64,000 nucleotides of DNA. Source: Clostridia bacterium UC5.1-2E3 (lineage in GTDB: Bacteria > Bacillota > Clostridia > Lachnospirales > Lachnospiraceae). Location of the stretch: contig BBZO01000006.1 in the NCBI GenBank assembly GCA_001304875.1, positions 1 through 64,000 on the forward strand. The letters are read 5' to 3'. Below the pieces are notes generated by a model. The model saw only the letters and a program-made list of their open reading frames with translations, made no database searches and was not told the origin of the DNA. Shown here one piece after another: positions 12,779 to 60,386 of this stretch; within the stretch, counting starts at the first letter, position 1, and every line of letters begins with the position of its first letter. Position numbers and translations under genes: made by a program.

Positions 12779-12807
12779 TTGATTTTGCTTCGTATTTATA
12801 TTATAAT
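12779..12807 (+). promoter_or_regulatory. Promoter of the phosphofructokinase pair
   Basis: TTGATT (12779-12784), 17-bp spacer, TATAAT (12802-12807), 32 bp before the first pfk start codon. A strong housekeeping-type promoter by sequence. Confidence 0.75.
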
Positions 12808-12838
12808 TGAGTACAAAGTGAAAGAGGAGGTATTTTTT

Positions 12839-23672: not shown

Positions 23673-24908
23673 ATGGGTACGGTTTTAGTAATCGGAGGAG
23701 GCGCCTCCGGGATGATGGCCGCCTACGCGGCGGCGAAGCGCGGCCAGACGGTGCGCCTCTATGAGAAAAATGAAAAGCTGGGAAAGAAAATCTTCATCAC
23801 CGGCAAGGGCCGCTGCAATCTGACCAACGGCTGCGAGGTGGAGGATCTGTTCGCCAATGTGGTGACCAATGAAAAGTTCCTCTACAGCGCGTTCTACGGC
23901 CTCACAAACCGGGACGTGATGGAGCTGTTTGAAGGCTGGGGCTGCCGCCTCAAGGTGGAGCGGGGAAACCGCGTGTTCCCCGTGTCGGACAAGTCCTCGG
24001 ACGTGATTGCGGCCATCGCCGGAGCCATCCGGAGGGCCGGTGTGGAGATCCATTTAAACGAGGAGGTCTCGTCCCTCGAGCTGCGCGGCGGCCGCTGCGT
24101 GGGCGTGCGGATGAAGGGGCAGAAGCGGCCCGTGGAGGCGGACGCGGTCATCGTGGCCACCGGCGGCCTTTCCTATCCGACCACCGGCTCCAGCGGCGAC
24201 GGCTACCGCTTTGCGGCAGAAGCCGGCCTGGCGGTGACGGAGTGCCTGCCGGCGCTGGTGCCCTTCGAGGTTCTGGAGGACGATGCGAAGGAGCTGCAGG
24301 GGCTGGCTTTAAAGAATATAGAGGCCACGGTGTATAACGGGAAAAAGGTTCTGTACCGGGAGTTCGGCGAGATGCTGTTTACCCATTTCGGCGTCAGCGG
24401 CCCGGTGCTTTTAAGCGCCAGCAGCTATGCGGCGAAAGCGCTTAAAAAGGGGCCGCTTTCGCTGTCCATCGATCTGAAACCGGCCTTAAGCGGGGAGCAG
24501 CTGGACGCCAGGATTTTACGGGATTTCGAGGAGGCGAAAATAAAGCAGTTTAAGAATGCCTTAAACCACCTCTATCCCCAGAAGATGATCCCGGTCATCA
24601 TCGCCCGCAGCGGCATTTCGCCGGAGAAGCGGGTGAACGAGATCACCCGCGAGGAGCGCCAGGCCCTGGTGCGCGCCACCAAGGATTTCCGGCTGACGCT
24701 CACCGGCCTTCGCGGCTACAATGAGGCCATCATCACCCAGGGCGGCGTCTCCGTGAAGGAGATCGACCCCTCCACCATGGAATCCAAGAAGGTGCCCGGC
24801 CTCTACTTCGCCGGCGAAGTGCTGGATCTGGACGCCGTCACCGGCGGGTTTAACCTGCAGATCGCCTGGGCGACGGGGTATGCGGCGGGGATGAGCGCGG
24901 GGGAGTAA
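23673..24908 (+). CDS. NAD(P)/FAD-dependent oxidoreductase, YhiN/HI0933 family
   Basis: This intact flavoprotein of 411 residues has the FAD-binding start VLVIGGGASGMMAAYAAAKR, the family signature TGKGRCNLTN, and a C-terminal FAGEVLDLDAVTGGFNLQIA. The substrate is unknown. Its TAA stop (24906-24908) lies inside the 5-bp duplication that flanks the transposon, so the insertion leaves the protein intact. The 3' end of yhiN is among the chromosomal sites known to be used by Tn7-like elements, so this gene probably supplies the attachment site. Its natural terminator seems to be the hairpin now at 60451. Confidence 0.93.
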   Translation: MGTVLVIGGGASGMMAAYAAAKRGQTVRLYEKNEKLGKKIFITGKGRCNLTNGCEVEDLFANVVTNEKFLYSAFYGLTNRDVMELFEGWGCRLKVERGNRVFPVSDKSSDVIAAIAGAIRRAGVEIHLNEEVSSLELRGGRCVGVRMKGQKRPVEADAVIVATGGLSYPTTGSSGDGYRFAAEAGLAVTECLPALVPFEVLEDDAKELQGLALKNIEATVYNGKKVLYREFGEMLFTHFGVSGPVLLSASSYAAKALKKGPLSLSIDLKPALSGEQLDARILRDFEEAKIKQFKNALNHLYPQKMIPVIIARSGISPEKRVNEITREERQALVRATKDFRLTLTGLRGYNEAIITQGGVSVKEIDPSTMESKKVPGLYFAGEVLDLDAVTGGFNLQIAWATGYAAGMSAGE

Positions 24909-24909
24909 G
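24905..24909. repeat. Target-site duplication, left copy (GTAAG)
   Basis: GTAAG lies directly before the transposon's terminal TGT and recurs directly after the other end at 60382-60386. Five bases is the duplication length made by Tn7-family transposases. Confidence 0.93.
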
Positions 24910-25215
24910 TGTTTAATTTACATTTATAAGGGAATTTAAGACATTTAAAGGGAATTATACGAGTCGGAAAGCTGGATTTTTTTACATTTATATCGGAACT
25001 ACCGGTTTTGGAAAGCCTTATAAAATAAGGACTCCCAGAGAAAAATGTACATTTGTAAAGGAATTATGAGAGTCTGATGCCAAAAGAATTTTTTACATTT
25101 ATATCGGAACCAGAATCGTGATTTTTTACATTTACAAGGGAATTAAGCGCTCCAAAAAAGGAAAAGGAATTATAGCAATCTGGCACGAAAAAATTTTTAC
25201 ATTTATATCGGAACT
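24910..25215 (+). repeat. Left transposon end: array of seven TnsB-site-like repeats
   Basis: Seven direct copies of a sequence close to TTTACATTTATAWSGGAAYT lie at about 24917, 24939 (shorter), 24981, 25046, 25092, 25125 and 25196. A degenerate GGAATTAT half-copy lies near 25168. All face the same way. Spacing is irregular (22 to 71 bp). This matches the multiple TnsB sites that fill Tn7-type ends. The remaining bases up to 25409 hold no gene that I can see. Confidence 0.9.
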
Positions 25216-27322: not shown

Positions 27323-27350
27323 ATATTGAAATATATTGATAATTCAATAT
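27323..27350. promoter_or_regulatory. Inverted repeat upstream of the restriction operon
   Basis: ATATTGAA (27323-27330) and TTCAATAT (27343-27350) form an 8-bp inverted repeat in a very AT-rich promoter region 46 bp before hsdM. It is a possible operator, perhaps for the ribbon-helix-helix protein at the operon's end. The binding partner is a guess. Confidence 0.4.
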
Positions 27351-27395
27351 ATATATTGTATATTAAAAATAAGATTGCAGAATGGAGGAACCATT

Positions 27396-29182: not shown

Positions 29183-29183
29183 T

Positions 29184-30436: not shown

Positions 30437-31131
30437 TGTCCTCCAATCTTACAAAAATAGATGTCGGAAAAAGAGCAATATATAACTATCACGTGTTAGG
30501 CGACAAAAACAATTCTAAAACAAATATGCAGATAGTTGATGCGTGGTATCCCAAAACAGCTCATCAAGAGGAGATCTATATACTGAATAATCTGCTCAAA
30601 TTAGCAAATGGACGAGATGGAGAGTATATTGAATTAAGTGAATATACCTTTTTGCTGGCGTTTATGACTGCAGGAGATATTCCTAAGATGGATGAATCAG
30701 GAAATCTCCTTGGCTATAGAAAAAATGCTAATGCTGTTCAACAAGCACTTCTTCGCTTTGAAGATTTTTCCAATAGAAAATTAGTGACTGGAAAACCGTT
30801 ATATTTGGCCGTTAATTTTGCAGGGAAACTTGAGCTTGAAGATCAAATATCACTTTCAAAAGTTCAAAATGAGTATATTTCTCAAAATATCGAGGACCTG
30901 TTGAAAATACTAACTGGTAGTACAGAACTTCTTGCAGATAATGTGAATCTAATTATTAAAGAATTGAGGGAATTAGAAGAACTTATAAAAGAAGAAAACA
31001 GGCCTTCAGTGGCAAAAACTCTATCAACAACTAATGATATAGCATCGATTATAGGTATGATTGCAGAAAATGTTCCAATCGCAGCAAAATTAGGCGTAAA
31101 TTTAGTGAAGACATTTGTATCAACCATATAA
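30436..31131 (+). CDS. Unknown protein inside the type I restriction operon
   Basis: This intact protein of about 232 residues begins MSSNLTKIDVGKRAIYNYHV. It starts at an ATG that overlaps the hsdS stop as TAATG, so it is translationally coupled. It has a central predicted helical region and a hydrophobic C-terminal segment (IASIIGMIAENVPIAAKLG). I do not recognise a family. Its position between hsdS and hsdR and its low GC suggest an accessory or companion defence gene acquired with the specificity region. Confidence 0.7.
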   Translation: MSSNLTKIDVGKRAIYNYHVLGDKNNSKTNMQIVDAWYPKTAHQEEIYILNNLLKLANGRDGEYIELSEYTFLLAFMTAGDIPKMDESGNLLGYRKNANAVQQALLRFEDFSNRKLVTGKPLYLAVNFAGKLELEDQISLSKVQNEYISQNIEDLLKILTGSTELLADNVNLIIKELRELEELIKEENRPSVAKTLSTTNDIASIIGMIAENVPIAAKLGVNLVKTFVSTI

Positions 31132-31150
31132 ATTCAGGAGATAATAGCCT

Positions 31151-34100
31151 ATGCAGGACAATGAAAAAAGATTTGAATCAGATATAGAAGAATTCCTGAT
31201 CTCTCCGGAAGGAGGCTGGGATAAGGCTTCCGATGCCGGATACTGTGCGTCCAAAGGGTCAGGCATGGCACTGGACCTTTCCACGCTGATCGGGTTCGTA
31301 AAGGATACGCAGCCGGTCGCATGGCAGCGTTTTGAGAAGCAGTGCAACTCTGATCCGGAGAAGAAATTCTACCGTGCTTTCGAAAATGCCGTTGAAAACG
31401 ACGGTCTTATCAGCGTGCTCAGACATGGCTTCAAGCACCGCGGTATAGATTTTAGGGTATGCTATTTTAAGCCGGAATCCACACTCAATGACCTTGCCGT
31501 GAAGCACTACGGACAGAACATATGCCAGTGTATCAGGCAGTGGCATTATTCCGAGCAGAATAATAACAGCGTGGACATGATGCTTGCCGTAAACGGTATT
31601 CCGGTAGTGGCTATAGAGCTTAAGAACCAGCTTACAGGTCAGAGTATCGACAATGCAAAACGCCAGTGGATGTTTGACAGGGATCCGAAGGAGCCTGCTT
31701 TCAGGCTCAACTACAGGATATTGGTATTCTTTGCCGTGGATCTTTATGAAGCAGTGATGACAACGAAACTCAACGGCGCCAAGACTTTCTTCTTCCCCTT
31801 TAACCAGGCTCAAATGGCCCCGGAAACGACGGCGGAGCCGGAAATCCGGAGACCAAGGACGGCGATTATGTGACTTCTTACCTTTGGAAAGACGTGCTGC
31901 AGAAGGACAGCCTCCTTGATATACTGCAGAAATTTGTCAATTTTGAGGTAAAAAAGGAAAAGACAGTCCTTGAGGACGGCACCTATAAGGAAGTGACGAA
32001 GAAGTCCCTGATATTCCCGAGATATCATCAGATGGATGCGGTAAGGAAGCTTGTAAAGGATGTTAGAGAGCATGGCCCCGGAAAGAACTATCTTATCCAG
32101 CACAGTGCAGGATCCGGTAAGTCGAATTCTATCGCATGGACGGCATACCGCCTTGCAAGCCTTCATAACGATAAGAATGAGCCTGTTTTCACATCTGTTG
32201 TGATCGTCACCGACCGTACCGTTCTTGATCAGCAGCTGCAGGATACGATCTCAGGCTTTGACCATACCCTCGGCTCAGTGGTGACCATAGATGAAAAGAA
32301 GAACTCAAAGGACCTGAGGGATGCCCTTAACGACGGCAAACGTATTATTGTGACTACTCTTCAGAAGTTCCCGGTGATCTATGAAGAAGTCAACGATACT
32401 ACAGGTAAGGCATTTGCCATTATAGTGGATGAGGCTCACAGCTCTCAGACGGGACAGAGTGCCATGAAGCTTAAGATGGCTTTGGCTGATACCCGAGATG
32501 CTCTTAAAGAGTATGCAGAGCTTGAGGGCAAGGCTGAGGCGGAGATGGAAGACGGTGAGGACAGCCTTGTCAGGGAGATGATCTCCCACGGAAAGCATAA
32601 GAACTTAAGCTTCTTTGCATTTACCGCTACGCCTAAAAATAAGACTCTTGAGATGTTCGGAGATGAGTACGATGACGGATTCTTCCATCCGTTTCATATC
32701 TACTCTATGAGACAGGCTATAGAAGAGGGATTTATCCTTGATGTGCTGCAGAACTATGTGACCTATAAAACTTGCTTCAGATTGCAAAGAGTACTCCGGA
32801 TAACCCGGAAGTGCCTACCACAAAGGCGATAAAGACTATCCGCCGCTTTGAGGAACTCCATCCTCATAACCTTCAGCAGAAGGCTGCTATTATTGTGGAA
32901 ACCTTCAGGGATGTGACAAAGCATAAAATTGGCGGAAAGGGCAAGATGATGGTCGTTACCGCATCAAGGCTCGCTGCAGTCCGCTATTATCATGAGATCA
33001 AGCATATCTTGAAGCCAATCACTATGACGATATAGAGATCCTGATCGCATTTTCTGGCAGTATAAAGGATCCGGAGGAGGATAACGGACCAGAGTACACC
33101 GAGAGCGGCATGAACGTGGATAGGAACGGTAACCGCGTCAGTGAAGCCCAGACCAAGGAAGTGTTCCATAACGAAGGCGATGTGCTGATCGTTGCGGAGA
33201 AATATCAGACAGGCTTTGACGAACCGCTCCTTCATACCATGATCGTAGATAAGAAGCTCAGAGACGTTAAGGCAGTACAGACCTTAAGCAGATTGAATCG
33301 TACATATCCTGGCAAGGAAGATACGTTTATTCTTGATTTTGTCAATACAAAAGATGAGATTCTTGAAGCCTTTCAGCTATATTATCAGGAGACAAGCCTT
33401 TCTGAAGAGATCAATGTAGATCTGATCTATAAGACTCAGAAACAGCTTCGTGATTTCAAAATCTACAACGATGATAATATAGAGGCCGTAAGCAAGATAT
33501 ACTTCTCACCTGACGCAAAAAAGGTGGACTCTGTCCAAGCAAAGATATCGAATGCCCTACTTCCTGTGGCTAAGGCTTACAATCAGCTTGATAAGAATGA
33601 GAGATACCAGTTCAGACGCCTTATAAGAGCTTTTGTTAAGTGGTATAACTATATCTCCCAGATCGTGCGTATGTTCGACAAGAATCTTCATAAGGAGTAT
33701 CTTTTTGTTCATATCTTTCAAAGCTGATACCATCTGATCCGGTGACTCCGTTCGATCTTGATAATAAGATCAAACTTGAGTATTACAGGCTGGAAAAGAC
33801 ATTTGAGGGTTCTATAGAACTCAAAGACAAAAAGGGAGTGCTTGATCCGGCAAAGACCAAGAAATCTGTAAAGATGGATTCTCAAAAAGATCCGCTTGAT
33901 GTAGTCATAAGCGCCATCAATGAGAATTATAAAGGCTCGTTCACTGACGCTGACAGGGTACTTGTAGGCACTCTTCGAGAAAAGCTTAAGGCTGACAAGA
34001 AACTCAGGAAAGCTGCTAAGGTCGACGGACAGCAGATTTTTGAAAAGAACGTCTTCCCTAAAATTTTCGATCAGACTGCGCAGAAGTCATATATTGAGAG

Positions 34101-37003: not shown

Positions 37004-38029
37004 ATGACTAACGATGATTTAACTGTTTTCCGGGAACGGAATGCACGGAAGCGTCTGTCCAATGCGGCGGCGCTGATTGGGAAGGCGGATGACGCCGTAT
37101 TTGAAGCCTGCCGCCCGACCGGATACGCGGAACTGGACAGGTGCCTTGGCGGCGGACTGACTGCCGGCCTTCACTGCCTTGGCGCGGTTCCGTCCTTGGG
37201 AAAATCAACCTATGTGATGCAGATGGCGGAACAAATGGCAGCAGAGGGGACCCATGTGATTGTGATTTCCCTGGAAATGAAGCCCGTGGATCTGGCGGCA
37301 AAGGCTGTCAGCAGGCAGCTTTACACGGACTGGCATGAAACATCCGCAGGTCTGTTAAAGACATCCGGCGAGCTGAGAAGCCGCACGGCCGTTATAAAGC
37401 TTACGGGCCGCGAATGGATGGCCGTGGAAGAAGCCGCCGGGAAAGTGGAAAAGCGCAGCCGTACCATCACGGTGGAAGAATGCGGGGCCAAGGCATGGAC
37501 TGCGGCGGACATCGCACAGTATGTGGGAAAATACATATCCGCATTTGGGGTTATCCCGGTGGTCATCGTGGACTACCTGCAGATCCTTGCCGCGCCGGAA
37601 GGAAAGGGCAGCCTTACCGACAAGCAGGCAGTGGATGAAAGCCTGCGTGTGCTTAAGTCCCTGAGTGATTCCAGGAAACTGCCGGTTGTCCTGATCAGCA
37701 GCCTCAACCGGGAAAGCTACGACCAGCCGGTATCCCTCCGATCGTATAAGGATACCGGGAGCATTGAATATTCCTGCGATACCGTGCTGGGGATGCAGTA
37801 CAGGGGTGTCGGGGCCAGGGACTTTGATGTTTTTCAGGCACAGGGGCAGAACCCGCGGGAACTGGAGGTCTGCGTACTGAAACAGAGATACGGGGCTGTC
37901 GGGATCCGCATCCCTTACCGGTTCTATCCCGCTTACAGCTGTTTTGAGGAACTTCCGTCTGCGCGGAGCGGAAAGCAGCCCAAAGGCTCCAAAAGACAAG
38001 CGCAGGATGACGGGATACTGGAAGTTTAA
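37004..38029 (+). CDS. DnaB-like RecA-fold ATPase (replicative helicase-like)
   Basis: This intact protein of 341 residues lacks the DnaB N-terminal domain. Its RecA-like core has TGYAELDRCLGGGLTAGLHC, Walker A GAVPSLGKSTYVMQ, VIVISLEMKPVDLAAK, a Walker B strand VVIVDYLQILAAPEGKGS, and a sensor-type segment VVLISSLNRESY. This is the C-terminal DnaB helicase pattern. It probably loads on, or unwinds, the iteron origin upstream. AAGGAG precedes the ATG. Confidence 0.85.
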   Translation: MTNDDLTVFRERNARKRLSNAAALIGKADDAVFEACRPTGYAELDRCLGGGLTAGLHCLGAVPSLGKSTYVMQMAEQMAAEGTHVIVISLEMKPVDLAAKAVSRQLYTDWHETSAGLLKTSGELRSRTAVIKLTGREWMAVEEAAGKVEKRSRTITVEECGAKAWTAADIAQYVGKYISAFGVIPVVIVDYLQILAAPEGKGSLTDKQAVDESLRVLKSLSDSRKLPVVLISSLNRESYDQPVSLRSYKDTGSIEYSCDTVLGMQYRGVGARDFDVFQAQGQNPRELEVCVLKQRYGAVGIRIPYRFYPAYSCFEELPSARSGKQPKGSKRQAQDDGILEV

Positions 38030-48206: not shown

Positions 48207-48342
48207 ACAGTCAATATGAAAGCGTGCAAAAATAAAAATGATTGGATCGCAGATGACGCAGAAATTTTTTAGAAAGACTGCAAAAAAGGAATCAGGGGAA
48301 CGCTCCATAATTACTATAGATAACTTTGCAGGAGATGATAAT

Positions 48343-49083
48343 GTGAAAATGAAAAGCGATAGAACGAAGCTGGCTGAAAAGAGATGTCTTGGAGAAGGAC
48401 CGGATTATACGGGATTCATTTTGGCAAGGGAGTCTGGCAGCATCGGAACGGCGGTAAGTGTTTATGATCCGATTGCCGGACGAAAAGTGGAACTGTTATC
48501 CCAGGGAGAGGCAGAGCTGTTCTGGATAATCCGATTCAGGGATGGGGTTAAAGAGATTAGGGAACAGATGATGCTGGCGCCGGAGATCGTCGCGGAAATT
48601 TGTACGGAATTTGGATTTCGAAGACCTTCCCATATCCTGAGTACGGATCTGCTCGTGGAGTATGAGAATGGGAATATGACCGCATACAGCGTAAAATCAG
48701 ACCGATCCGCGCTCTTTCAGCCCAACCTCGAACCCAGGAAGCAGAGGCGCATTCTGGAACGGCAGAAGATAGAACAGGAGTATTGGAGACGACACGGGGC
48801 AGAGTTTAAAATCGTGTTCCGAACCGATCTGAATCCGGTATATACCCGCAACGTGGAAGCGGCAATGGCATTTTATGATCCCCGCTTTGTAAATAGTGAG
48901 GAGGATATGCTTAAATATCTGGTGGCTCACAAGAAAATCCGTATTGATATGGAAAACGGTCCTGTTCCCTATGCAAGATTGTGCAGGGAGCTTCCCGATA
49001 TAAAGGCCAGATACCGGATGGCTCTGCGGGATGGGAATACCGGACAAATCCGACTGGAGGGATATTATGCTGAAGGAAATTAA
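48343..49083 (+). CDS. tnsA: TnsA, transposase endonuclease subunit
   Basis: TnsA cuts the 5' ends of the transposon so that Tn7-like elements leave the donor fully. The PD-(D/E)XK residues are visible: Glu in LLSQGEAELFWI (about residue 59), Asp in HILSTDLLVEY (about 101) and Lys in TAYSVKSD (about 117), followed by KIEQEYWRRHGAEFKIVF. I chose the GTG at 48343, with GGAGA 7 bases before it; ATG 48349 is close by. An in-frame ATG at 48238 has no ribosome site. It overlaps tnsB by 17 bp. Confidence 0.9.
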   Translation: MKMKSDRTKLAEKRCLGEGPDYTGFILARESGSIGTAVSVYDPIAGRKVELLSQGEAELFWIIRFRDGVKEIREQMMLAPEIVAEICTEFGFRRPSHILSTDLLVEYENGNMTAYSVKSDRSALFQPNLEPRKQRRILERQKIEQEYWRRHGAEFKIVFRTDLNPVYTRNVEAAMAFYDPRFVNSEEDMLKYLVAHKKIRIDMENGPVPYARLCRELPDIKARYRMALRDGNTGQIRLEGYYAEGN

Positions 49084-51180
49084 AATTGGCGACAGAATTG
49101 TCCTGTTTGGAAAACTTTACCGTATTCTGATCAAACACAGGGACTTATTCTGATGATAGAAATGAACGTGGATAAGATGATTTTCAAATGGGAGCATGAG
49201 ACGGTCCTTTCCGCTTTTCTCAATAGGATGAAGCTGTAATTGATACAAGTGAGGAAGCACGATATCCCATTGAACACCTTACCGACGATGAAAAAGCGAG
49301 TATTCGGATGAAGCGGGACTATATTGAAGATATGTTGGATAAATTGTACCGAACTGGGATGACCTGGCAAAGAAAAGGACAAAACCGGAACTGTTAAAAC
49401 TGATTGATCAATTTATCTGTACTCCTAAGTATGTCCGAAAAAAAGTAAGGGAATATCTTCAGTCAGGAAGAAATGAATACTCCTTGATGGATCGAAGGAA
49501 AATGATTGACCATAGCGGTTGTTCAATGGTTAAGCTTCGCGGCGCAAAACCAAAATACTATGATCCCAATCGTATAGAGAACGATGAAAAATTAAAATCA
49601 ATTTATGATGAGTATTTTGCCCAGTTCCTGAACAGCAGCGAAAAGCTGACGATACAGGCCGTATATGATGAAATGGTAGCGGAGCATTTTGAAAATACGG
49701 CACTGGCACCTCCTACATATCGCCGTTTTAATTACTACGTCAATCGGAGACTGGAGGAAAATAACATGACCTTGAAGCAGGCAAAGATGAATGCCAGGGA
49801 AAGACGCAATAATCATCGGCTGCTCAAAGGAAACGCTCAGTCCGGAGTCTATTATCCGGGACAGATGCTGGAGATCGATGCAGTGGAGCTGGACAATTAC
49901 AACGTATCCCTTCGGAACCGCAGCCAGCTTGTTGGGAAGGGCGTTATGTACTGCGCGGTGGATGTGTACAGCTGCTGTTTGGTGGCCTGCTGGATCGGAT
50001 TTGAAAATAACAGCATTACGGGGATAACGGATCTTCTGTACACCCTGCTGGACGATCACACGGAAGAAGCGGCAAGATATGGAGTGGAGCTGACGCCGGA
50101 ACTTTTCCCGTCCCGCTTTATCCCGACCTCCATCCGGACGGACCATGGCGCGGAGTATGAATCAAAGGAGTTTTCCCGTATGTGCAAGGAGATGGGAATT
50201 AACCATCATTTTGTTGCACCGGCTACCGGAAGCCTTAAAGGTACGGTGGAGCAGTTTTTCCATCAGTTCCAGACCCTGATGAAATCGCAGCTTGTGGATG
50301 CGGGAGAGACCTACAGACGGTACAATTCCAATCACAAGCAAAAGGCAGTCCTTACCATTGAGGAAAGCCGCAGCATGATGTACCAGTTCGTGAAATATTT
50401 TAACCGCCAGATCCGCCCGAATTATCCCTATACCAGGGAGATGATCGAAAGCGGAATTGCTCAATGCCCCATGGCAATCTGGGAATACGGCATTCGGAAT
50501 ATCCAATCGCGAGGCAGGTGACGGATAAAAACAGGGACATGCTGTATTTCGCCCTGTTAAGAAATGATATTCCGTTCCGTGCTTCGGGGAAAGGCATTTC
50601 CTACAAGGGATTGTATTACTGGGATGAGAGCAGCTGGTTTCTGGAACTGAGCATGAAGATGAACCGGGAAGAAAAGAAGTCGATAAAGATTTCCGGAATC
50701 CGCTACGATCCGCGTCTGGTGGACCGGATTTACCGGATGGAAAACGGCAGGCTGATCACGATCCCGCTGAGTTTTCTAAGAGATGAGCAGAAGAGCTTCC
50801 TGGGAATGTCGTGGAAAGAATATCTGGAACTGTATGAGATGAAGAAGGAGAATGAGGCGGCCTACCGTCCGATCAATGACCAGTACAGGCGTGAAGCGAA
50901 AAAGGAAACCCGGAAAATCGTGGATGCGGCAAAAGCGGCGAAGGCCTTGGGCAGTCCGGAATCCAAAGGGAAAAACAAGACCACGGAGATTCGGGCGGCG
51001 CGGAAAGAGGATGGCAGGGAGCTCGTAAGGCGGGATGCGGATGCCAAAGGCAAGCTGCTGCTTCCGGAAACGGAAGTTCCGGAGCCGGCTGCCGTTGAAA
51101 TCAGGCAGGAGGCACCCATGCAGCCCGCTTCCATGGAAGAATTCCTCAAAATGACGGAAGAACTCTCAAAATTCAATTAA
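49067..51180 (+). CDS. tnsB: TnsB, DDE transposase (four frameshifts)
   Basis: TnsB binds the end repeats and cuts and joins the 3' ends. The start is ATG 49067 (MLKEIKIGDRIVLFGKLYRI) behind GGAGG. The catalytic triad is Asp in QMLEIDAVELD (near 49875), Asp in IRTDHGAEYES (near 50140) and Glu in GSLKGTVEQFFHQF (near 50247), followed by the C-terminal beta barrel. Frames break near 49130, 49230, 49365 and 50505. The central integrase core (49484-50500) is unbroken. A long charged, Ala/Lys-rich tail ends at TEELSKFN, possibly the TnsC contact. Confidence 0.93.
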
Positions 51181-51194
51181 CGGAGGTGATATGG

Positions 51195-52824
51195 ATGAAG
51201 AAAATCCGGAATTTTAATCTTTCGTATGTTTCGCGTGACGCCGCTCAGTATGATGCAAGGCTCCTGGATGAAAACGATGTTGTGGCGGCACGGTACCGCA
51301 GGTATGATGGGTATGAAAATAATCCCAATATATGCGCTCTTCCGGAAGAAGAGGATATGCAGGGACTGTACAGAAGCCATGCCGTTCCCCTTCCGGGATA
51401 TGACAGCCGACTGGTTCCCCAAATGGGGACGGAAGAAAGGCAGAGGATCCTGTTTGGGATCAAGGATGTGAGGCTTCCCCTCCCGTTTCATGCAAGTGTT
51501 GAGTCCACGCTCCATAACTGCCTGATCCGCAGCTATGCCAACCGTGAATACAGGCTTGCGGAGACCGGGAAGACTGCAGAGATCGTCCTGGACGGGCATA
51601 CGGTATCGACGGCCATGTGCTCCCGCCGGAATGACCTGATGAGCACCCCTCCCGCCTTTTCCGTCATCGGGACGGCTGGCTCTGGAAAAACGTCGGCCAT
51701 CCGGCTGACGCTGCGGAAGTTCCCGAAGGTTATCATTCATGAACTGGATGAGGTTTCCTATATCCAGATTCCAATCGTGCTTCTTACCGCTCCGGCTAAC
51801 AGCAACCTGAAGGCGCTGTTCATACAGTTCGGCCAGCAGATGGATGACCTCCTGGGCCAGGATTCATATTACAGCGAAATGTTTTCGAAGCAGACAAGCA
51901 ATGTCGGACGGGCAAGTAATATGATGACGCAGATCATAAAGAAATTTTCCATAGGCATGATTATCATTGACGAGATCCAGCAGATGGACTTCAAGGCAAA
52001 TTCCGCAAAATCCTTTGAAAATTTCCTGGCCATAACCTCGAACAGCGGGGTTGCCTGTGCTGTATCGGCACGCCGGATGCCATGGACAAGATCGCCGGGG
52101 ATCTGAGAATATACCGGCGTATCGCGGGGATCACGGTAAAGGCGGATGAGTACTGCATGGAGAGGGAATACGTGAAGCAGCTGGTATCCGTACTGTGGCA
52201 GTATCAGTTTACGGAGATTCCCGTTCTGTTCTCTGATGGAACGGCGGAGCTGATTGCGGATCTGTCAGGAGGCTCCATTGACGCGATTACCACCATCTGC
52301 TTTACCATCCAGAGACACGCCATACTCCGAAACTGCCCGGAAAGATGGACTGCGAGTATCTGAGGGGGCTGCTTACCACCAGGGAACTGGAAAAGATGGG
52401 CGCCATGATCCGTGTGTCCAGGGACAAAAACCTGAAAGGACGTCTGGATTACCGCACTTCCATCCGGGGAGAGGGAGAAAACAGCGAATATCAAAAGAAG
52501 GAAGCGGAGTTAAAGGGCATGCTGAATGCAAAATCCTATGGCCGGGTTGCGGACATGGCGGCAGTTCGAAGCAGCATTATGAACGTATTTGACATTTACA
52601 GTGAGGCGATGATCAGCGCGGCATACGAAGAGGCGGAAAAAGAAGAGGGCTTTGCGGAGCTGCCGGTATCGGATAAAACAAAGGCCGTGATGGGTGTTTT
52701 GAAAAAAATGAGGATCCCAGGCCGGAAGAAGAGGGCCGGAAAGAAAGAGGAAAAGAGTCCCAGACCGGTCTTAAGCGATGAGGAACTGATGGAAGACATG
52801 AAGAAAGCGGCGGGAGGAATCTAA
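51195..52824 (+). CDS. tnsC: TnsC, AAA+ regulator of transposition (two frameshifts)
   Basis: TnsC is the ATPase that links the target selector to the transposase. It has Walker A GTAGSGKTSAIRL (near 51670-51700), Walker B GMIIIDEIQQMD (near 51960-51990) and sensor sequence IGTPDAMDKIAGDL read across the frame break near 52068. A second break near 52345 leads to the C-terminal part (DCEYLRGLLTTRELEKMGAM). The N-terminal extension of about 150 residues suits contact with TnsA/TnsB and the TniQ proteins. ATG 51195 follows GGAGGTGAT. The stop is immediately followed by tniQ1. Confidence 0.92.
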
Positions 52825-54807
52825 ATGCTGTCTTATTGTGAAAAGCCATATGAAGGGGAACTGCTTTACGGGTTTGCGCTGCGCATGTACCGGTATAATG
52901 AGGAACCGGAATCCTTTCGGCGGTTTGCCTTCCGCAACTTTGGCATCGGGTACGGCACGGGAAGGGGCACCAAAATCCCATACGATTATGTCACAGACGC
53001 GGAACGGGCAGCGGCCGAAAACATAAGGCTTCGTTCCTTTCCGGATATACGCCGTCTGGTGTTTGAAATGCTGCCGACGGGGACAATCCTTCCGTTCATG
53101 CGTTTTTCCCATCAGGCCAGGTATATGGAAGCCGTCCTGCACGGCGCCCATAATTTCATCCGGCCCGTGAGGACGACAAGAAGCCTTCCCTATCTCAAGC
53201 TCTGTCCGGACTGCATGAGGGAGGATATAAAACGGTATGGGGAAGCTTATTACCATGCGGAACACCATATACCCGGAATGAAAATCTGCCCGAAACATTT
53301 ATGTCCCCTGAAAATGGCCCGCACGGAGAGGGCGGCAGATTTATGGGAACAGGCAGATGCTTTCCGCACCGACGGGGAGGAGGCCGTGGAGGAGATGAGG
53401 ACGGAAATTTTCCGCAGCGGATTCCTGGCGGGGCTTTACCGGGAACCGGCTTATACCGATTTCACGGAGATCATCCGAAGCGTCCAGAATAAAATTCAGA
53501 AAGAAGGCATTGCGGTGTCGGAGGCATATGAACGGATCAGGGAACGGTACGGCATGCAGTGTGCTTTTAACGGCATGGATCGGTTTGAATTGTTTCTCCA
53601 GAGGCAGGTAAAGGATGGGGAGTGTCTGCTCCAGGCCGCCGAAACATATCTTACGGTCCGGGAAATGGGCGCGGACACTGCGGGACAGGAGCGGGCGCTG
53701 CGGACGGAGCTGCAGGGGAGATTTGAACTCCTTTCCGATTTTGGGGTGATCGTAAAGCTGAAATGCGGCTGCGGCCGCGAATTTTACACGCATCCTTACG
53801 CTTTGCTCATGGGGCTTGGCTGTCCGAGCTGCGATGAAAAGCTGTCCCCGGAAGAACTTGCCAACCGGATGCTCTCCAGGCTGGGAGACGGAAAATACCA
53901 TACGGATTATGTCCCCGAAAAGATCAAGGCGTGCAGGGTTATCCATGATACCTGCGGAGCTTACAGGGATGATTTTTATGACATCGTGTTTGGGGAGAAA
54001 CGCTGCAAATGTGAAGTGGTGCTCAGTCTGGACGAATATCAGGACCTGATTGATAAGAAACGCCGGGAGTTTTTGGCGGAATCCTTCGTGGAAGATCCTT
54101 CCGGGAGAAAGATACGGATCAGGCATAAAAAATGCGGCGGGGTTTTTGACGTAAAGCCGGTGTACTTTCTTCCTAATCGCACCTGCCGTATCTGCAGCCC
54201 GCGATACGTGCCGTCCTTATCCGTTGACCAGGCCATGGAGGCGCTTACCGGGAAGGAGTACGTCAGGATATCGCCCTACGGGGGATACCGGGATAAGATG
54301 CTGGTACGCCATGCGTCCTGCGGCACCTGGTTTGCGATAACGCCGGACGGCTTCCGGGAGGGATACCGCTGTCCGCTCTGTACTCCGGTGAATTGGCCGA
54401 GGGAATATGTGGAGCAGGCGGTACGTGACTGCACGGATGGCCTGTACAATGTGGAGGAAATCCAAAGAGACCGGGTAACGGTCCGGTGTGCTGACGGTAC
54501 CGTATTCCATAAATCCAGAAGCTTTATTATCCAGGAATTGATCCGGCCCACACCGTCCGCCGTGTTCCGCTTTCGGTCATCCAGGCCGGAAACGCTGATC
54601 AACGACCGGTTTGCGGTGTTTGACCGGGCCAGGGAGACATGTGAAAGGAAAGGGCACTGGATCGCGGAAGATCTTCCAGGAATCAGTTATGGAACAAGAA
54701 AAAGCATCTGCCGGTGGCTCAATGACAACGGTTATCTGAAAAGAGTGGAAAAGGGGGTATATGTCCTGGGAGAAAAGGCGTATCCCCCGGAGAACAATAA
54801 AAAGTAA
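52825..54807 (+). CDS. tniQ: TniQ/TnsD-like target selector 1 with zinc-module array
   Basis: This intact protein of 660 residues begins with the TniQ domain (GELLYGFALRMYRYNEEPES) and its zinc finger CPDC...CPKHLCPL at about residues 126-163. After a helical middle come four similar modules of the type CxC or C..F...G..CxxC, near residues 311, 375, 434 and 496 (KCGCGREFY, DTCGAYRDD, KKCGGVFDV, ASCGTWFAI). A winged-helix-like end (NDNGYLKRVEKGVYVL) follows. TnsD proteins bind the 3' end of a fixed gene and recruit TnsC; here the likely target is the adjacent yhiN end. It starts directly after the tnsC stop. Confidence 0.93.
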   Translation: MLSYCEKPYEGELLYGFALRMYRYNEEPESFRRFAFRNFGIGYGTGRGTKIPYDYVTDAERAAAENIRLRSFPDIRRLVFEMLPTGTILPFMRFSHQARYMEAVLHGAHNFIRPVRTTRSLPYLKLCPDCMREDIKRYGEAYYHAEHHIPGMKICPKHLCPLKMARTERAADLWEQADAFRTDGEEAVEEMRTEIFRSGFLAGLYREPAYTDFTEIIRSVQNKIQKEGIAVSEAYERIRERYGMQCAFNGMDRFELFLQRQVKDGECLLQAAETYLTVREMGADTAGQERALRTELQGRFELLSDFGVIVKLKCGCGREFYTHPYALLMGLGCPSCDEKLSPEELANRMLSRLGDGKYHTDYVPEKIKACRVIHDTCGAYRDDFYDIVFGEKRCKCEVVLSLDEYQDLIDKKRREFLAESFVEDPSGRKIRIRHKKCGGVFDVKPVYFLPNRTCRICSPRYVPSLSVDQAMEALTGKEYVRISPYGGYRDKMLVRHASCGTWFAITPDGFREGYRCPLCTPVNWPREYVEQAVRDCTDGLYNVEEIQRDRVTVRCADGTVFHKSRSFIIQELIRPTPSAVFRFRSSRPETLINDRFAVFDRARETCERKGHWIAEDLPGISYGTRKSICRWLNDNGYLKRVEKGVYVLGEKAYPPENNKK

Positions 54808-54818
54808 CATCTGTTTCC

Positions 54819-54846
54819 GGGTCTCCTGAGAGGGAGGCCCCTTTTT
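54819..54846 (+). terminator. Terminator between the two tniQ genes
   Basis: GGGTCTCC (54819-54826) pairs with GGAGGCCC (54833-54840), with one G-U pair, followed by TTTTT at 54842-54846. It can end the tnsABC-tniQ1 transcript and set the second selector apart. Confidence 0.75.
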
Positions 54847-54909
54847 GTGCGGTAATTGCAGGCAGACGGACCATAATATAAGAAACAAAACTTATGGGAG
54901 GGAAGCCTA

Positions 54910-57070
54910 TGCTGCTGCCGCGTGTATTAAAATCCAGGATGATGAACTGCTCTACGGATGGTATGAGCGCATCCTGCAGGAAAACCGGATCGAGGGAAAC
55001 AAAGGCGAGGAAACACGCTTTTTCAGGACGTTTTTTAATCCCAGGGAGGATGCGGAAATCAGGGGAACGATTCGATACGACTACATACTGAATCTGGAGC
55101 GGCTCTGCAGCCTGCACGCTCTTCACAGGAAGTTCCCAAGCGTGGAGGAGTTTCTTCGGTTCCATACGGATTATTACGCTATGCTGCCGCTGCGGACGTT
55201 TGGGGAGCAGGTAAAACTGGCGGAGTTCATTTTGCGGCCCCGCACGGACAGGAAGACCTGTATTTCCACATGCCAGACAGAGATTACGGAACTGCATGCA
55301 AGGGAGGGCAGCTGGTACCTTCGTGTGGAGGACCAGCTGCCGGGTGTCCGTGTCCATAACGGAAAGCCGCTGGTTCGCTGCCGGGTAATGGAAGGCAGGA
55401 TTGTCAGGGAAGAACCGTTAAAACTGAAGGGCGGTATGGAGGTTGAGGAGCGTCTCAGCCGCTTCGTAAAGGAAATGTATCGGAAACCAGCGGCAGGAAT
55501 CAGCTTGATCAGACCAAGGAAGCTGTCCGCAGGCAGCTTGTAAAAAAAGGCTTCCACCCGGAATATCCTTATGGAGGCCTGGTATCCGGGCTAGCGGATG
55601 CGGGCTTTGCCCCGTTCTTTCAGTCGGATGACATTGCCGTCCGGATTAGGAAGCTGATGGGGCAGGACAGCATTGTAATAGAAGAAATGCTGGCATTGCT
55701 GGCTTTCCTGTTTGAGGAATATGGGGAATTTTATGAAGCGGTTCTTAAATTTCGGGATTCCGATCTTCCCTTCCTGGAGTCCTATGAGGTGTTGGAAAAT
55801 TTTGAGCCGATTTTGAAGGTGCGCTGTCCGAAATGCGGAAATGAGTTCTACATTCACAAATACGGCCCTGAGATCGGCGTGGGCTGCCCGGAATGTGACC
55901 GGAGCCTGACGGATGACGCCATTGCAGAGCGCTATCTGTCACATCTGGGAGATGGAAATTATGAAATGCTGGAGCCATTCCAGGGCTTTGGAAAGCAGAC
56001 AAAAATTCTCCATAAGACTTGCGGCAGTATCAGGAATGTCAATTTTTCCGATATGATCTGGGGAAGGCGGGCATGCACCTGCGAGGCCGGCGTGGACTTG
56101 GAGGAAATACAGCGTCGATCGATCCGACAAAAACAAGGTTCCGGCTGCTGGAATATAACGGGGCAAAAGGCGAAGGCCAGCTCATTCGGGTTCAGTGCCT
56201 GTCGTGCGGCGAGGAATTTGCGATTCACTTGAAAGGTTTCCTGGACCATCCTTTCTGCCGTATCTGTAACAGTGACAACCGTTACCGAGATACATTTGAA
56301 GAAAAAGTAAGGATCCTGGGAAATGGGGAATATGACTTGATTGTTCCGTATGTGAACGAGAAAACAAAGGTAAAGATCCGGCATCACCGCTGCGGAACCG
56401 ATACGGAGCTTTATCCGCCCAACTTCCTTTACGGCCAGAGATGTATTCTTTGTACGCCTGCGATCCGAAGCCGGAGTGAGTACAGCGTCCGCTCCAATGT
56501 TTACGTGGCCATAAAAAAGGCCTGCGAGATCAACGAGGGAATCTGCTTTATTGAAGACATCCGGTCGGATTTGGATATGGATTCAGCTAGTTTGACCTCT
56601 GCCATAGATGGCTGATAAAAAACGGGTATCTCAGAAAGCTGTCCTGGAATACCTATTCCCTGGAGGAATATACAGCGGACGAGATTGCGTACCGAAAGTA
56701 TATTAAGAGAAATGGGAATGTGGAGGGCGTGTATGCTTACGAGTCGGCAGCTTATCATGCCGGTATTGCTGAAGAACAGCCAGAGATGGAATATATATTT
56801 ACAAACATGGTGCAGTCGGAGGATTCGGTTGAGGTAAAGATTGCGGATCGGAGTTTTCGGGTCAGGAAAGCAAAATTTCCGGTAACCCAGGAGAATCAGA
56901 AGATACATACTGCATTGAATCTGCTGATGTATGCGGCAGAGAGTCCAGAGAAGGTGGAGGCCGTGCAGGAATGGATGGAAGAGAAGGGGATGACAAAGCA
57001 GAGGCTTTGGCTGTTTGTGAAGGCGTATCCTTTGGATGCGGCGAAGGGGATGGAGATGGTGTTTGGATAG
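54910..57070 (+). CDS. TniQ/TnsD-like target selector 2 (several frameshifts)
   Basis: From ATG 54910 (ribosome site GGGAGGGAAG) the frame shifts near 54925 into KIQDDELLYGWYERILQENR, a TniQ-type opening. The counterpart of the TniQ zinc finger (CISTC...LPGVRVHNGK) keeps the shape but has lost the CxxH ligands. Further breaks near 55470, 56110 and 56600 lead through four C..C modules (RCPKCGNEF, KTCGSIRNV, QCLSCGEEF, HRCGTDTEL) and a winged-helix-like NGYLRKLSWNTYSL. A last frame, ending AKGMEMVFG at 57070, appears to be its extension. About 720 residues. It may serve a second target or form a partner of the first selector. Confidence 0.78.
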
Positions 57071-57190: not shown

Positions 57191-58008
57191 GTGAATATGG
57201 ATATAGATTTGGATTTAGAGCAACAAAAAAAGAAATGGATGTCACGTTTTGCTATTTTGAATAACCGTGGACTTGTTTTTAACGCACTTAAAGGTAAGAC
57301 TATTGATAATCTCCTAGAACCGTATAAAAAACTATTTAAGCTGTTGCCGGTCTTTGAGACTGAAAATATTGAATATTATCGTGCGAGAACGGTGAACTTT
57401 GAGAAAGATGTGAATACAGGAAAAGGTATTATAGAGATAAATGGACATTTAGCGGGAGCATTTAATGAAAAAGAATCTGGAAAAGCTCCTGCTGCCAGTT
57501 GTAAAGCTGGGCGTTTGAATGATGCCGGAGAATCCGTGTTTTATATAGCCGAAGATTTGAAAACTGTAATTGCGGAAATGAAACCTACAAGTGGCAGTTA
57601 TATTTCCGTAGGGAAATTTCGTCAAAAGAAAGAGTTTAAAATATTTGATTTTGCAACATGGCTAAGAACAAATATAAATGATGATTTCATCATAGAACAA
57701 TTCCAACGATATAATGAGGATGAGGAATTAGATGCGGAGGTGCTTTTTCGTGGCGTAGAATTATATTTGACTATGCCTGACTATATAGAACAAGATTATA
57801 AAGTATCTCATGTTATAGCAAAAGCGTTAAAAGAACTGCCAATAGACGGTGTGAAATATATGTCATATTTTACACATAAAACAATATAGCTATTTGGAAG
57901 TGCGATGATATAGATTATGAATTTGAAGGAAGTAAATTATTCTATATCGATGAGCAATATAATATCGTTGGAAACGATGACAAGATAACATATGAAAAGC
58001 TAAAATAA
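57191..58008 (+). CDS. RES-domain protein (one frameshift near the end)
   Basis: The core shows the conserved Arg, Glu and Ser of RES proteins: YYRARTVNF, then AGRLNDAGESVFYIAEDLKT with IAEMKPTSGSYISVGKF. RES domains break down NAD+ and act as toxins in RES-Xre pairs. The frame stops at 57889, but one base restored near 57885 continues it as AIWKCDDIDYEFEGSKLF to 58006-58008, about 272 residues. No Xre partner lies before it. A promoter TTGTAA-18-TATAAT (57126-57155) precedes it. It is AT-rich and ends 14 bp before the TIR-like gene. Confidence 0.88.
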
Positions 58009-58022
58009 AATGAGGTGACAAA

Positions 58023-59057
58023 ATGAGTGAACAATGTAAATGTCCTATGTGTAATTCGAATGCTTGGTTAGATGTAGATATATCGGCTGCATCAAAATTT
58101 TATTCATGCCCAGTATGCGGACGTATAGATTTGCAGCTGAATTTAGATACACGTATTGATGAGGTTCAGTTTGATCGAAATCATTTGGCAGCATTTCTTG
58201 TTTATAATGGTTATAAAAATGAATTAGCATTTTATACAAACAGATCAAAAGAATGGGTTGATAAAGTAAAAGAGGAGTTTCACAAGGGAAATAGAGAACA
58301 TGGATTACCAGTGTATCTTGATAATGAGACTGTAGAAAATTGGTATCCAAAAACATTTGCCGAAAAGATAGATCGTATCCTTCTTTATTTTGGTGATCAT
58401 ATTAAACATGTAGGAGAAAGCCTTACACTAAAAAAGGAAGAACTTTATAGTGTCCTTTTTGTGGATAGATTTGATTATGATCAATTTGGCAAACCTGTAG
58501 AAAGAGGCAACGGTGCATTAAAAAGTCAAGCGGACTTCATGTTAAACTACCTTAAGGATCAGTCATATATAAAAAGTCTTACATCTGCTAGCTGGTGGAA
58601 TACTTCAGGCGATGAAATAAATTTGCAAGTATTACCGACATGCTATGCGAGGATTGATCTCTTACAGAAAAATAATACTCATGGGAAAGATGTTTTTGTA
58701 GCTATGAAATTTGGAGATGATACAACAAAGCTAAGAGAGGCTATTCATAAAGGCATTAAGAATGCAGGTTATAAGCCTATTTTGATAGACGAAGTTGAAC
58801 ATAACGAGTTTATTATTCCAGAATTATTAAAACATATCAAGGACAGTAAATTTGTCGTAGTGGATCTGACTCATCAAAATAATGGGGCGTATTTTGAAGA
58901 GGGGTACGCTATGGGACTTGGAAAGCCAGTTATTCAGCTCTGTAAATCGACTACAAAATTGCATTTTGATGTTGCTCAGAAAAATACTATTATGTGGAAA
59001 ACTGAAGAAGATATTCCTGAAAGACTTGAAAAACGTATAAAGGCTACTATAGATTAA
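58023..59057 (+). CDS. Zinc-ribbon plus nucleoside deoxyribosyltransferase/TIR-like protein
   Basis: This intact protein of 344 residues has an N-terminal zinc ribbon (CPMC and CPVC), a helical middle, and a C-terminal domain (DVFVAMKFGDDTTKLREAIH; KFVVVDLTHQNNGAYFEEGY; LGKPVIQLCK) of the nucleoside 2-deoxyribosyltransferase/TIR-like fold. The Glu in FEEGYAMGLGKP is the expected catalytic residue. Proteins of this fold cleave nucleosides or NAD+ and are common in antiphage systems. GAGGTGAC lies before ATG 58023. Its pairing with the RES gene suggests one two-gene unit. Confidence 0.85.
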   Translation: MSEQCKCPMCNSNAWLDVDISAASKFYSCPVCGRIDLQLNLDTRIDEVQFDRNHLAAFLVYNGYKNELAFYTNRSKEWVDKVKEEFHKGNREHGLPVYLDNETVENWYPKTFAEKIDRILLYFGDHIKHVGESLTLKKEELYSVLFVDRFDYDQFGKPVERGNGALKSQADFMLNYLKDQSYIKSLTSASWWNTSGDEINLQVLPTCYARIDLLQKNNTHGKDVFVAMKFGDDTTKLREAIHKGIKNAGYKPILIDEVEHNEFIIPELLKHIKDSKFVVVDLTHQNNGAYFEEGYAMGLGKPVIQLCKSTTKLHFDVAQKNTIMWKTEEDIPERLEKRIKATID

Positions 59058-59163
59058 AAATTGCTAAAAGTCGTTGCACAGCATAATGATATTACGAATA
59101 TGATTCGTGTTTTAAAGATTAGAGGTTGGACAAGGCACTATTAACTATACTTAGAGAGGGACT

Positions 59164-60197
59164 ATGAATCAATTGATTGACTTAGAGTTTTACAATCATA
59201 TCAAAGAAATCCTGACGACCGCTCGCAATAGGTATATCATACAGCCAATTCTGCGATGGTCAGAGCGTATTGGGAGATTGGAAAAAGTATTGTTGAGAAG
59301 CAGGGCGGTGAAACAAAGGCAGAATATGGAACAAAGTTATTAAGAGAATTATCGAAACAGATGACAACCGACTTTGGAAAAGGATTTACAGTAACCAATC
59401 TCAGCTATATGAGGCAATTTTATTTGACTTTTCCAAATTATCACGCACTGCGTGATGAATTGAGTTGGACACATTATCGCTTGCTTATAAAAGTCGAAAA
59501 TGAAAGAGCACGTCAATTTTATCTGGAAGAATGTGTAAAATCAGCCTGGAGTACAAGACAACTGGAGCGTCAGATCAATAGCTTTTTCTATGAACGCCTG
59601 CTGTCCAGTCAGGATAAAAAAGGGGTAGCTGCAGAAATCAATAAGCTGGAGCCGGGTAAAAAGCCGGAAGATATTATCCGTGACCCTTATGTCCTGGAGT
59701 TTCTGGGACTGGAACAGAATGCCAGTTTCTATGAAAGCGAACTGGAACAGGCGCTTATTGATCATCTGCAGAAATTCCTTCTGGAATTGGGAAGAGGTTT
59801 TTCCTTTGTGGCCAGACAAAAGCGATTTACTTTCGATGGGGAGCATTTTTTCATTGACCTCGTGTTTTACAATTACATTTTAAAATGCTTTGTCTTGATT
59901 GATCTTAAAACGGGAAAATTGACGCATCAGGATCTAGGACAAATGCAGATGTATGTAAACTATTATACGAGAGAGATGATGAATGAGGGAGATAATCTTC
60001 CCATTGGAATTGTTCTTTGCGCGGATAAAAGCGAATCGGTAGTGCGTTATACGCTGCCAGAAGACAATCACCAGATTTTTACTTCGAAATATAAGCTTTA
60101 CCTGCCGTCAGAGGAAGAACTGCGCCAGGAACTGCAGCGTGAATATCATGTGCTGGATGATGTTATGCAGAATGAAACAGGAGACAAGTGGAGCTAA
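59164..60197 (+). CDS. DUF1016/YhcG-type nuclease (one frameshift)
   Basis: Two domains are visible: an N-terminal helical DUF1016 domain (NSAMVRAYWEIGKSIVEKQG; GFTVTNLSYMRQFYLTF) and a C-terminal PD-(D/E)XK nuclease (FFIDLVFYNYILKCFVLIDL then KTGKLTHQDLGQMQMYVNYY). The start is ATG 59164 (MNQLIDLEFYNHIKEILTTA). The frame breaks near 59240, one base lost before YHTANSAMVR. It is the last gene before the right tip. Such proteins are frequent in mobile elements and defence islands; the role is unknown. Confidence 0.85.
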
Positions 60198-60220
60198 GCG
60201 AAAATGGCTCAGGATTCTAT

Positions 60221-60381
60221 AATTCGGATAAATGTAAAAAAATACTCTTATCAGTTTCCTATATTTCGGATATAAATGTAAAAAACAAAATGGCGAATTG
60301 GAAAGCTATAATTCGTTTTCTAATGTAAAAAACAGCATCAAAACAGGGGTAATATGATTCCGATATAAATGTCGAAAAACA
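60221..60381 (-). repeat. Right transposon end: four TnsB-site-like repeats
   Basis: Four copies of the left-end repeat lie in inverted orientation at 60221, 60263, 60311 (degenerate) and 60356. The last reaches to the terminal ACA at 60379-60381. Fewer and closer copies than at the left end, so the ends differ, as in Tn7. Confidence 0.88.
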
Positions 60382-60386
60382 GTAAG
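60382..60386. repeat. Target-site duplication, right copy (GTAAG)
   Basis: Identical to 24905-24909. It marks the right boundary of the element. Confidence 0.93.

Follow-up and report, generated by a model that had tools for sequence, protein, structure and literature searches.

The 64,000-nucleotide stretch of contig BBZO01000006.1 from Clostridia bacterium UC5.1-2E3 analyzed here (the window; source assembly of 3.46 Mb, 80 contigs, 86.7% complete) contains a Tn7-like element of 35,472 base pairs (bp) at positions 24910-60381, with the operon order tnsA-tnsB-tnsC-TniQ1-TniQ2. Its two TniQ-type proteins, each with an array of zinc modules, are the subject of this analysis. The element follows the stop codon of a TIGR00275-family gene that we take to be yhiN, the name used in an earlier note on this sequence. 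It has the ends of a Tn7-like element: arrays of TnsB-type boxes on both sides (six left, four right), TGT...ACA termini and a 5-bp duplication, the length of Tn7's own target duplication. The junctions were chosen by eye from TGT/ACA-like termini near the last box and checked by script afterwards. With up to three mismatches allowed, all six box matches in the whole assembly (6/6) fall at the two element ends. The features are collected in Table 1.

TnsA, TnsB, TnsC and TniQ together provide the element with a predicted Tn7-like gene set. The rve match of TnsB (E 1.2e-6, 29.1 bits) is below the cut-off of 32.6, and the protein is 42% identical to an intact relative. TnsC has, in addition to its AAA_22 match, a TniB match slightly below the cut-off (E 1.6e-4), and its first piece aligns to the relatives.

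Table 1. Features of the Tn7-like element and its target gene in the window (strand relative to the window; modules are numbered from the N-terminus)
Feature	Positions	Strand	Basis
yhiN-type gene, target, intact	23673..24908	+	TIGR00275 family E 4.5e-139; stop codon 24906-24908
Left copy of 5-bp target-site duplication GTAAG, includes yhiN stop	24905..24909	.	
Element left end, starts TGTTTAATTTAC..., six TnsB-box-like repeats	24910..25214	+	
TnsA-like endonuclease gene	48238..49083	+	Pfam Tn7_TnsA-like_N E 4.7e-11
TnsB-like transposase gene, two frames (49484-50521, 50464-51180)	49484..51180	+	Pfam rve; match to intact relative
TnsC-like AAA gene, two frames (51186-52106, 52345-52824)	51186..52824	+	Pfam AAA_22 E 1e-9
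TniQ1, predicted TnsD-type selector with zinc array, 660 residues, single open frame	52825..54807	+	
TniQ1 TnsD-like core, residues 1-275	52825..53649	+	8glw_Y Z 15.4, root-mean-square deviation 3.8, 254 aligned
TniQ1 module 1, residues ~297-340	53713..53844	+	alignment, AlphaFold model
TniQ1 module 2, residues ~355-397	53887..54015	+	alignment, AlphaFold model, zinc motif
TniQ1 module 3, residues ~416-458	54070..54198	+	alignment, AlphaFold model, zinc motif
TniQ1 module 4, residues ~478-520	54256..54384	+	alignment, AlphaFold model, zinc motif
TniQ1 module 5, zinc-less, residues ~540-577	54442..54555	+	strand-strand-strand-helix as in modules 1-4 (AlphaFold model)
TniQ1 winged helix, residues 592-650	54598..54774	+	VIA Z 8.5 to 2ma3, many winged helices ranked lower
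TniQ2, TniQ1 paralogue, four pieces in three frames, three frameshifts	54845..57070	+	
TniQ2 module 1 zinc motif	55825..55896	+	motif
TniQ2 module 2 zinc motif	56011..56082	+	motif
TniQ2 module 3 zinc motif	56187..56267	+	motif
TniQ2 module 4 zinc motif	56382..56453	+	motif
Element right end, four box repeats, finishes ...GAAAAACA	60217..60381	-	
Right copy of duplication GTAAG	60382..60386	.	

TniQ1 opens with a TniQ domain (residues 7-162, Pfam E 8.5e-14) containing a CCCH site (C127, C130, C155 and H158), which is invariant in an alignment of nine family proteins (those other than the window TniQ2 and the proteins of genome G933, see below). The N-terminal 275 residues resemble Tn7 TnsD bound to TnsC, with 8glu (Z 15.3; Foldseek E 3.1e-6 for the core) next to the 8glw match of Table 1. 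The TnsD-TnsC structures are the best fold match for both structure models, and TnsD/TniQ is the top PDB profile match (E 1.7e-7), while the Pfam TnsD family (PF15978; PMC8649781) has no match in TniQ1 at E <= 1. From its CCCH-bearing TniQ domain and its modelled TnsD core fold, TniQ1 is thus predicted to be a TnsD-type selector. Its C-terminal region contains zinc-array family matches, modelled modules and one winged helix rather than several helix-turn-helix (HTH) domains, and no nuclease family was matched in a Pfam scan. The AlphaFold model (mean predicted local distance difference score 72.2, module blocks 60-90; predicted template modelling score, pTM, 0.52) is laid out as a helical core, five beta-beta-beta-helix modules linked by helices, and the winged helix. 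Judged by their ligands, four of the five modules (residues ~297-520) bear zinc; the fifth, at residues 542-575 of the model, has no zinc ligands.

The array of TniQ1 has counterparts in phage proteins. The family phrog_559 of PHROG, annotated as ‘HNH endonuclease’, matches TniQ1 (E 2.9e-29), three relatives (E 2e-29, 5e-32, and 1.5e-39) and one TniQ2 piece (E 9.7e-17). A tblastn search with TniQ1 retrieved 178 phage records, and among the 40 listed the best are Lactococcus phage arrays (E 9e-14); some phage array matches are again annotated as ‘HNH endonuclease.’ One protein of Lactococcus phage AM4 (YP_009905408.1) has four modules, matches Pfam CapR (E 1.1e-11) and has a weakly DUF2726-like end (E 0.041), so that the HNH label may be wrong. 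Foldseek found 145 viral protein models matching the TniQ1 model at E <= 0.001. Among the best 50 of these 145, many are named zinc-ribbon, treble clef or homing endonuclease, and the template modelling (TM) score to the query is 0.08-0.19; such a local but poor whole-chain match fits an array of the beads-on-a-string type. CapR, DUF723 and a third related repeat domain have been described as the repeats by which homing endonucleases bind DNA, like ‘beads on a string’, and their modularity may speed target change (PMC10448857). Short-peptide scans of genome and viral contig sets detected no direct close relative of TniQ1, nor, in the viral contigs, a close relative of the window TnsB. A bacterial locus (L016) likewise encodes a tandem zinc array, joined to a nuclease-like end and lacking TniQ, and such arrays thus occur outside phages and transposon selectors too.

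The zinc modules stand in tandem and have an H/CxxC...CxxC or CxC motif; their PHROG match is strong, but the three Pfam module models (CapR, DUF723 and DUF4379) were matched below cut-off only, and not at all in TniQ1. Comparing the 10 module pairs within TniQ1, M3-M4 outscores all shuffles (500/500), M1-M4, M1-M3, and M4-M5 are each equalled by at most 25 of 500, and the remaining six pairs by 40-145 of 500. From this single sequence the module repeat is only partly above chance, and the case for the modules rests on homology. Among the nine proteins, no ligand varies in the core, in modules 1, 2, and 4, or in the second pair of module 3. Best matches between proteins fall mostly in the same slot (M1 72/90, M2 63/90, M3 59/90, M4 88/90, M5 66/81), which suggests that the modules are mostly orthologous by slot and not shuffled. 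The VIA comparisons cover mainly residues 9-181 and 592-656 and barely test the array fold against the PDB. A PDB sequence search with the array alone found no solved zinc array; its matches, of which the best (E 8.6e-7) covers part of module 4, are to designed beta-trefoil proteins and were taken as chance.

In TniQ2, a Pfam scan of the first piece found no TniQ domain, and BLAST aligns this piece with the TniQ cores of relatives (36% identity over 214 residues with TniQ1 of Brotaphodocola catenula). In the alignment its CCCH site is lost: the first knuckle reads CQTE for CPxC, and the second has no Cys and a shifted His. The site is present in TniQ2 of the two other elements with a full-size pair, those of B. 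catenula and of an uncultured Lachnospiraceae (CALWOX010000005, genome G485). All four zinc modules are intact. The C-terminus is unlike that of TniQ1 and consists of a winged-helix-like stretch plus about 130 residues, in common with TniQ2 of the relatives. The likeness of this end to AbiEi is a single weak match in one relative (E 9.4e-4, far below the cut-off), to which the fold-search rows add no support. Stand-alone proteins matching just the TniQ2-type end were noticed in two of the genomes. The earlier note had given both proteins a TniQ opening, four cysteine-rich modules and a similar winged-helix end. The opening is borne out by Pfam in TniQ1 and only by BLAST, with the zinc site lost, in TniQ2; the four zinc modules are there in both, with a zinc-less fifth in TniQ1 that the note had missed; the two ends differ.

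The three frameshifts of TniQ2 are probably assembly errors, since the housekeeping gene purL is likewise split into four collinear open frames in the same window. TniQ2 is one open frame in both other full-size pairs, and the window's broken TnsB and TnsC are intact in G485. The genes mcsB, clp, pfk, purL, and a helicase gene are truncated or frameshifted (1800-5021, 8233-10588, 12779-13971, 15903-19303). As housekeeping frames are broken too, a lone broken frame should be distrusted wherever it lies in this assembly.

Profile and TnsB searches found TniQ proteins with such an array in seven further elements, giving eight with the window, and most named relatives are Lachnospiraceae. G485 encodes TniQ1 and TniQ2 in an element at rnfB, with its ends on two contigs. 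In B. catenula the pair is spread over two contigs, TniQ2 is preceded by an intron-type reverse transcriptase, and the target is rsfS (also across two contigs). Coprococcus catus and Fusibacillus kribbianus each have one array TniQ at nrdD. Lachnospiraceae MI.11_2 (nrdD, two contigs) and U.6_8 (nrdD inferred) have one array TniQ in an element cut by a contig end. The eighth element, from genome G933, which belongs to another family of the class, lies inside comM and has one long and one short array TniQ. A single array TniQ is thus found in the operon of four of the eight elements as far as the contigs reach, and full-size pairs are limited to the window, G485, and B. catenula. The C-terminal ends vary by lineage. 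Some have a winged helix, others a longer end with weak likeness to AbiEi, and others two HA domains (E 1.9e-31 to 1.1e-33). In a tree of the family proteins other than the window TniQ2, TniQ1 and TniQ2 of the dual elements form separate groups (91/90 and 81/81, under the tool's star threshold) nested in one well-supported group (100/100), and this suggests a duplication older than the dual elements.

Array TniQ proteins are rare: at E <= 1e-25 they occur in two of 391 genomes of the class and three of 397 of the family, the window genome being counted in both. The idea that arrays are usual in TniQ proteins was discarded, as in 17 of 18 loci fetched for TniQ1 from the same taxonomic order (a set separate from the window hits L001, L017, and L021) the TniQ frame holds no more than three CxxC motifs, taken as no array; the eighteenth is L016. 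In the seven weaker loci from the genome contigs (L050-L056), no TniQ frame has more than two C..C motifs. A further locus, L110, was dropped as an element for having just one box.

The eight elements enter five genes (yhiN, rnfB, rsfS, nrdD, and comM). Both junctions were read in seven of them, with the duplication identical at 5/5 bases in six and at 4/5 in C. catus; the right terminus of the G485 element is TCA, not ACA. In U.6_8 only the right junction was seen, and its target is taken as nrdD because the right flank GCACT was found 12-16 bp past the stop of an nrdD gene that now bears another left end; a left end with boxes matching this element was not found. Insertion lies 15, 17, and 15 bp (16 in the inferred case) past the stop of nrdD, 1 bp past yhiN (2 in a remnant described below), 15 bp past rnfB, and 11 bp past rsfS. 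The offsets are near-fixed at nrdD and yhiN, the two genes entered more than once. Elements past a stop have the upstream side of the tns operon toward the gene (in G485 and MI.11_2 inferred across contigs). In G933 the Tn7-like element splits comM (L058 7117-8121, L081 ~17015), with the downstream side of the operon toward the 5' half of the gene. In B. catenula, the right end of the first element is directly followed by another left end with boxes of a similar type (L045 7387-7870, L078 17609-17830). The inner sequence of this second left end resembles that of the first, and elements seem to be stacked at one site. The U.6_8 nrdD gene has a differently boxed left end 18 bp past its stop (L121 300-456), which again suggests stacking.

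We consider it probable that TniQ1 is a protein-only selector in which the reading end of TnsD has been replaced by an array of the homing-endonuclease type and which acts at yhiN. The TnsD-like core, the homology of the array to phage endonucleases and the insertion at the yhiN stop with its duplication agree with the proposal of the earlier note that selection here is modular and purely protein-based. We infer that TniQ1 binds within the 3' end of yhiN through its C-terminal part (four zinc modules, the zinc-less fifth and the winged helix), while the N-terminal TniQ/TnsD core would recruit TnsC. By analogy with TnsD (PMC2918618, PMC11406308), TnsC would then position TnsA and TnsB so that insertion occurs just beyond the stop, a set distance downstream. 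The DNA-reading part would have been swapped, from the HTH domains of Tn7 TnsD to an array like that of phage homing-type endonucleases in this lineage. TniQ2 probably arose by a tandem duplication that predates the three dual elements and may have been kept for its array. Since its TniQ zinc site is lost, the window TniQ2 most likely does not recruit TnsC itself; that it serves by helping to bind the same site is our tentative view, to which we give somewhat less than an even chance.

A remnant in G485 bears on whether the array follows the target. This genome has, besides its intact-looking element at rnfB, a decayed Tn7-like element at yhiN (L071, G485:C2, 1303-3500) with left-end boxes and fragments of both selectors. 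The remnant TniQ1 and TniQ2 ends are 58.5% and 54.7% identical to those of the window, 30.6% and 23.8% identical to those of the rnfB element in the same genome, and at most 38.4% and 28.2% identical to those of elements at other genes. This likeness favours target over host.

Several points weigh against the proposed selector. Because the tnsABC genes of the remnant are gone, common descent alone could explain its likeness to the window. Over M1-M4, proteins at the same target are no closer (C. catus and MI.11_2 36%, C. catus and F. kribbianus 31%, MI.11_2 and F. kribbianus 37%; MI.11_2 and U.6_8, at 74%, stand apart) than TniQ1 pairs at different targets (35%, 35%, and 42%). The Pfam module families are unmatched in TniQ1, TniQ2 pieces reach them only below the cut-off (CapR E 0.017, DUF723 E 0.035), and so do the relatives for DUF4379 (E 0.0055-0.056). 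C. catus lacks the first ligand pair of module 3, and F. kribbianus has lost half of that pair. Lastly, the first piece of the window TniQ2 is nearest to a TniQ1 (that of B. catenula) rather than to a TniQ2, its other three pieces being closest to B. catenula TniQ2, and the gene may simply be decaying.

Overall module identity, as aligned here, carries no target signal. The corresponding TnsB identities are 39-58% for same-target and 39-45% for different-target pairs (window TnsB by its first piece). A base-by-base code, as the earlier note had envisaged, finds no support, since pairs at one target are not set apart by module identity from pairs at different targets and the modules mostly hold their slots. 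A solenoid of zinc modules along DNA likewise finds none: whole-chain TM scores to viral arrays are low, and module placement is not judgeable at a pTM of 0.52. Identical modules at different targets, which would have spoken against the note's idea, were not seen, M1-M4 being 35-42% identical in four different-target orthologue pairs.

TniQ1 and TniQ2 could instead be two independent selectors, TniQ1 for the yhiN home site and TniQ2 for a second one, for instance on a plasmid or at a different gene, in the manner of the two pathways of Tn7. Two-pathway use is described as common among Tn7-like elements (PMC11406308, PMC10293859), and the separate tree groups, at the support given above, and the different C-termini agree with it. 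A general second selector should keep its array, yet when G485 is compared with B. catenula, TniQ2 is less conserved in its array (35%) than in its core (43%), while in TniQ1 the array is the more conserved (42% against 34%). The log ratio of array to core conservation differs by 0.41 between the two proteins (95% interval 0.10-0.72, one element pair). The relatively less conserved array of TniQ2 counts against a constant general second target and mildly suggests a role tied to the home site. As the window TniQ2 also has no TniQ zinc site, we regard two independent selectors as unlikely.

The window TniQ2 may also be a dead gene, with TniQ1 working alone, as one array protein suffices in the single-selector relatives. 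Its three frameshifts and lost zinc site would fit this, as would the four elements with one array TniQ. The equally split purL makes the frameshifts likely errors, however, and the four intact zinc modules and the single open frame in the two other dual elements argue for a working gene, so that we find its death doubtful. A wider version of the proposed selector sees the TnsD core plus zinc array as a re-targetable, protein-only chassis, in which residue changes in fixed slots would move the element among yhiN, nrdD, rnfB, rsfS, and comM, and TniQ1 and TniQ2 of dual elements would co-read one long site side by side; this we hold to be speculative and rather improbable. Least likely in our view is that the modules give general DNA affinity or protein contacts and leave the choice of site to the winged helix and the other C-terminal domains: the ends do differ between lineages (the HA domains at E 2e-31 or better) and the slot-conserved modules do not track the target in overall identity. 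But nrdD is reached with HA-type ends in F. kribbianus and MI.11_2 and with the longer end in C. catus, so the C-terminal end does not alone set the target, though the nrdD elements are also mutually closest in TnsA, TnsB, and TnsC. In homing endonucleases, DNA binding is ascribed to such arrays (PMC10448857).

The cargo of the window element (25701-26576, 27336-33727, and 57191-60197) comprises a NADAR protein, type I restriction-modification genes, a RES-domain protein, a protein with a TIR-effector-like end and a YhcG-type nuclease (PDC-S02 by PADLOC). A protein with a DnaB-type helicase C-terminal domain (E 8.7e-29) is encoded at 37004-38029 within the element, and a DnaB-like protein was recognized by eye near another Tn7-like element in genome G546 (L038 2717-3793). 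Such a protein may mark an integrated replicon.

In the literature searched (main texts, mostly open-access), no description of an array TniQ was found, and the parts of PMC10293859 on TnsD, TnsF, and dual loci make no mention of pairs of two full-size selectors. Within that literature, the array TniQ is a previously undescribed variant of the TnsD-type selector. The family bears on the open question of how such elements gain new attachment sites, and it offers a protein-guided alternative to RNA-guided transposition. Its reading part is common to a second, well-populated pool of DNA-finding arrays, the phage homing-type endonucleases; since the same design recurs at other genes, it seems to be a part for finding DNA that can be reused. 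The matching of array and target becomes directly testable with these eight elements at five genes, of which seven have both junctions read.

Compared with known systems, the window element is like Tn7 with TnsD and attTn7 (glmS) in its TniQ/TnsD core with a CCCH site, its insertion past the stop of a conserved gene and its 5-bp duplication. It differs from Tn7 in having a zinc array for the HTH domains, other target genes and two full-size selectors. In Tn7 TnsD the CCCH site is needed for att binding and transposition (PMC2918618). TnsD proteins are described as having HTH domains at the C-terminus, and TnsF as a selector of its own that carries zinc fingers (PMC10293859). Tn6022, with TniQ and TnsF, also uses a protein selector with multiple zinc fingers and enters comM, as the G933 element does; by description its TnsF is separate and has an inactive tyrosine recombinase, whereas here array and TniQ form one protein (PMC10293859). 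Dual loci usually encode one protein of more than 400 residues and a substantially smaller one, and unlike the TniQ of CRISPR-associated transposons, both window selectors are large (PMC10293859). Tn6230, described in Escherichia coli between yhiN and yhiM (PMC10121019), also uses yhiN as its attachment site, and its molecular details are given as unknown in the table of PMC11406308. The phage homing-type endonucleases with CapR, DUF723 or DUF4379 modules, such as the AM4 protein, contain the same module in tandem; there the array is joined to a nuclease (a weakly DUF2726-like end, annotated as HNH), and here to a TniQ core.

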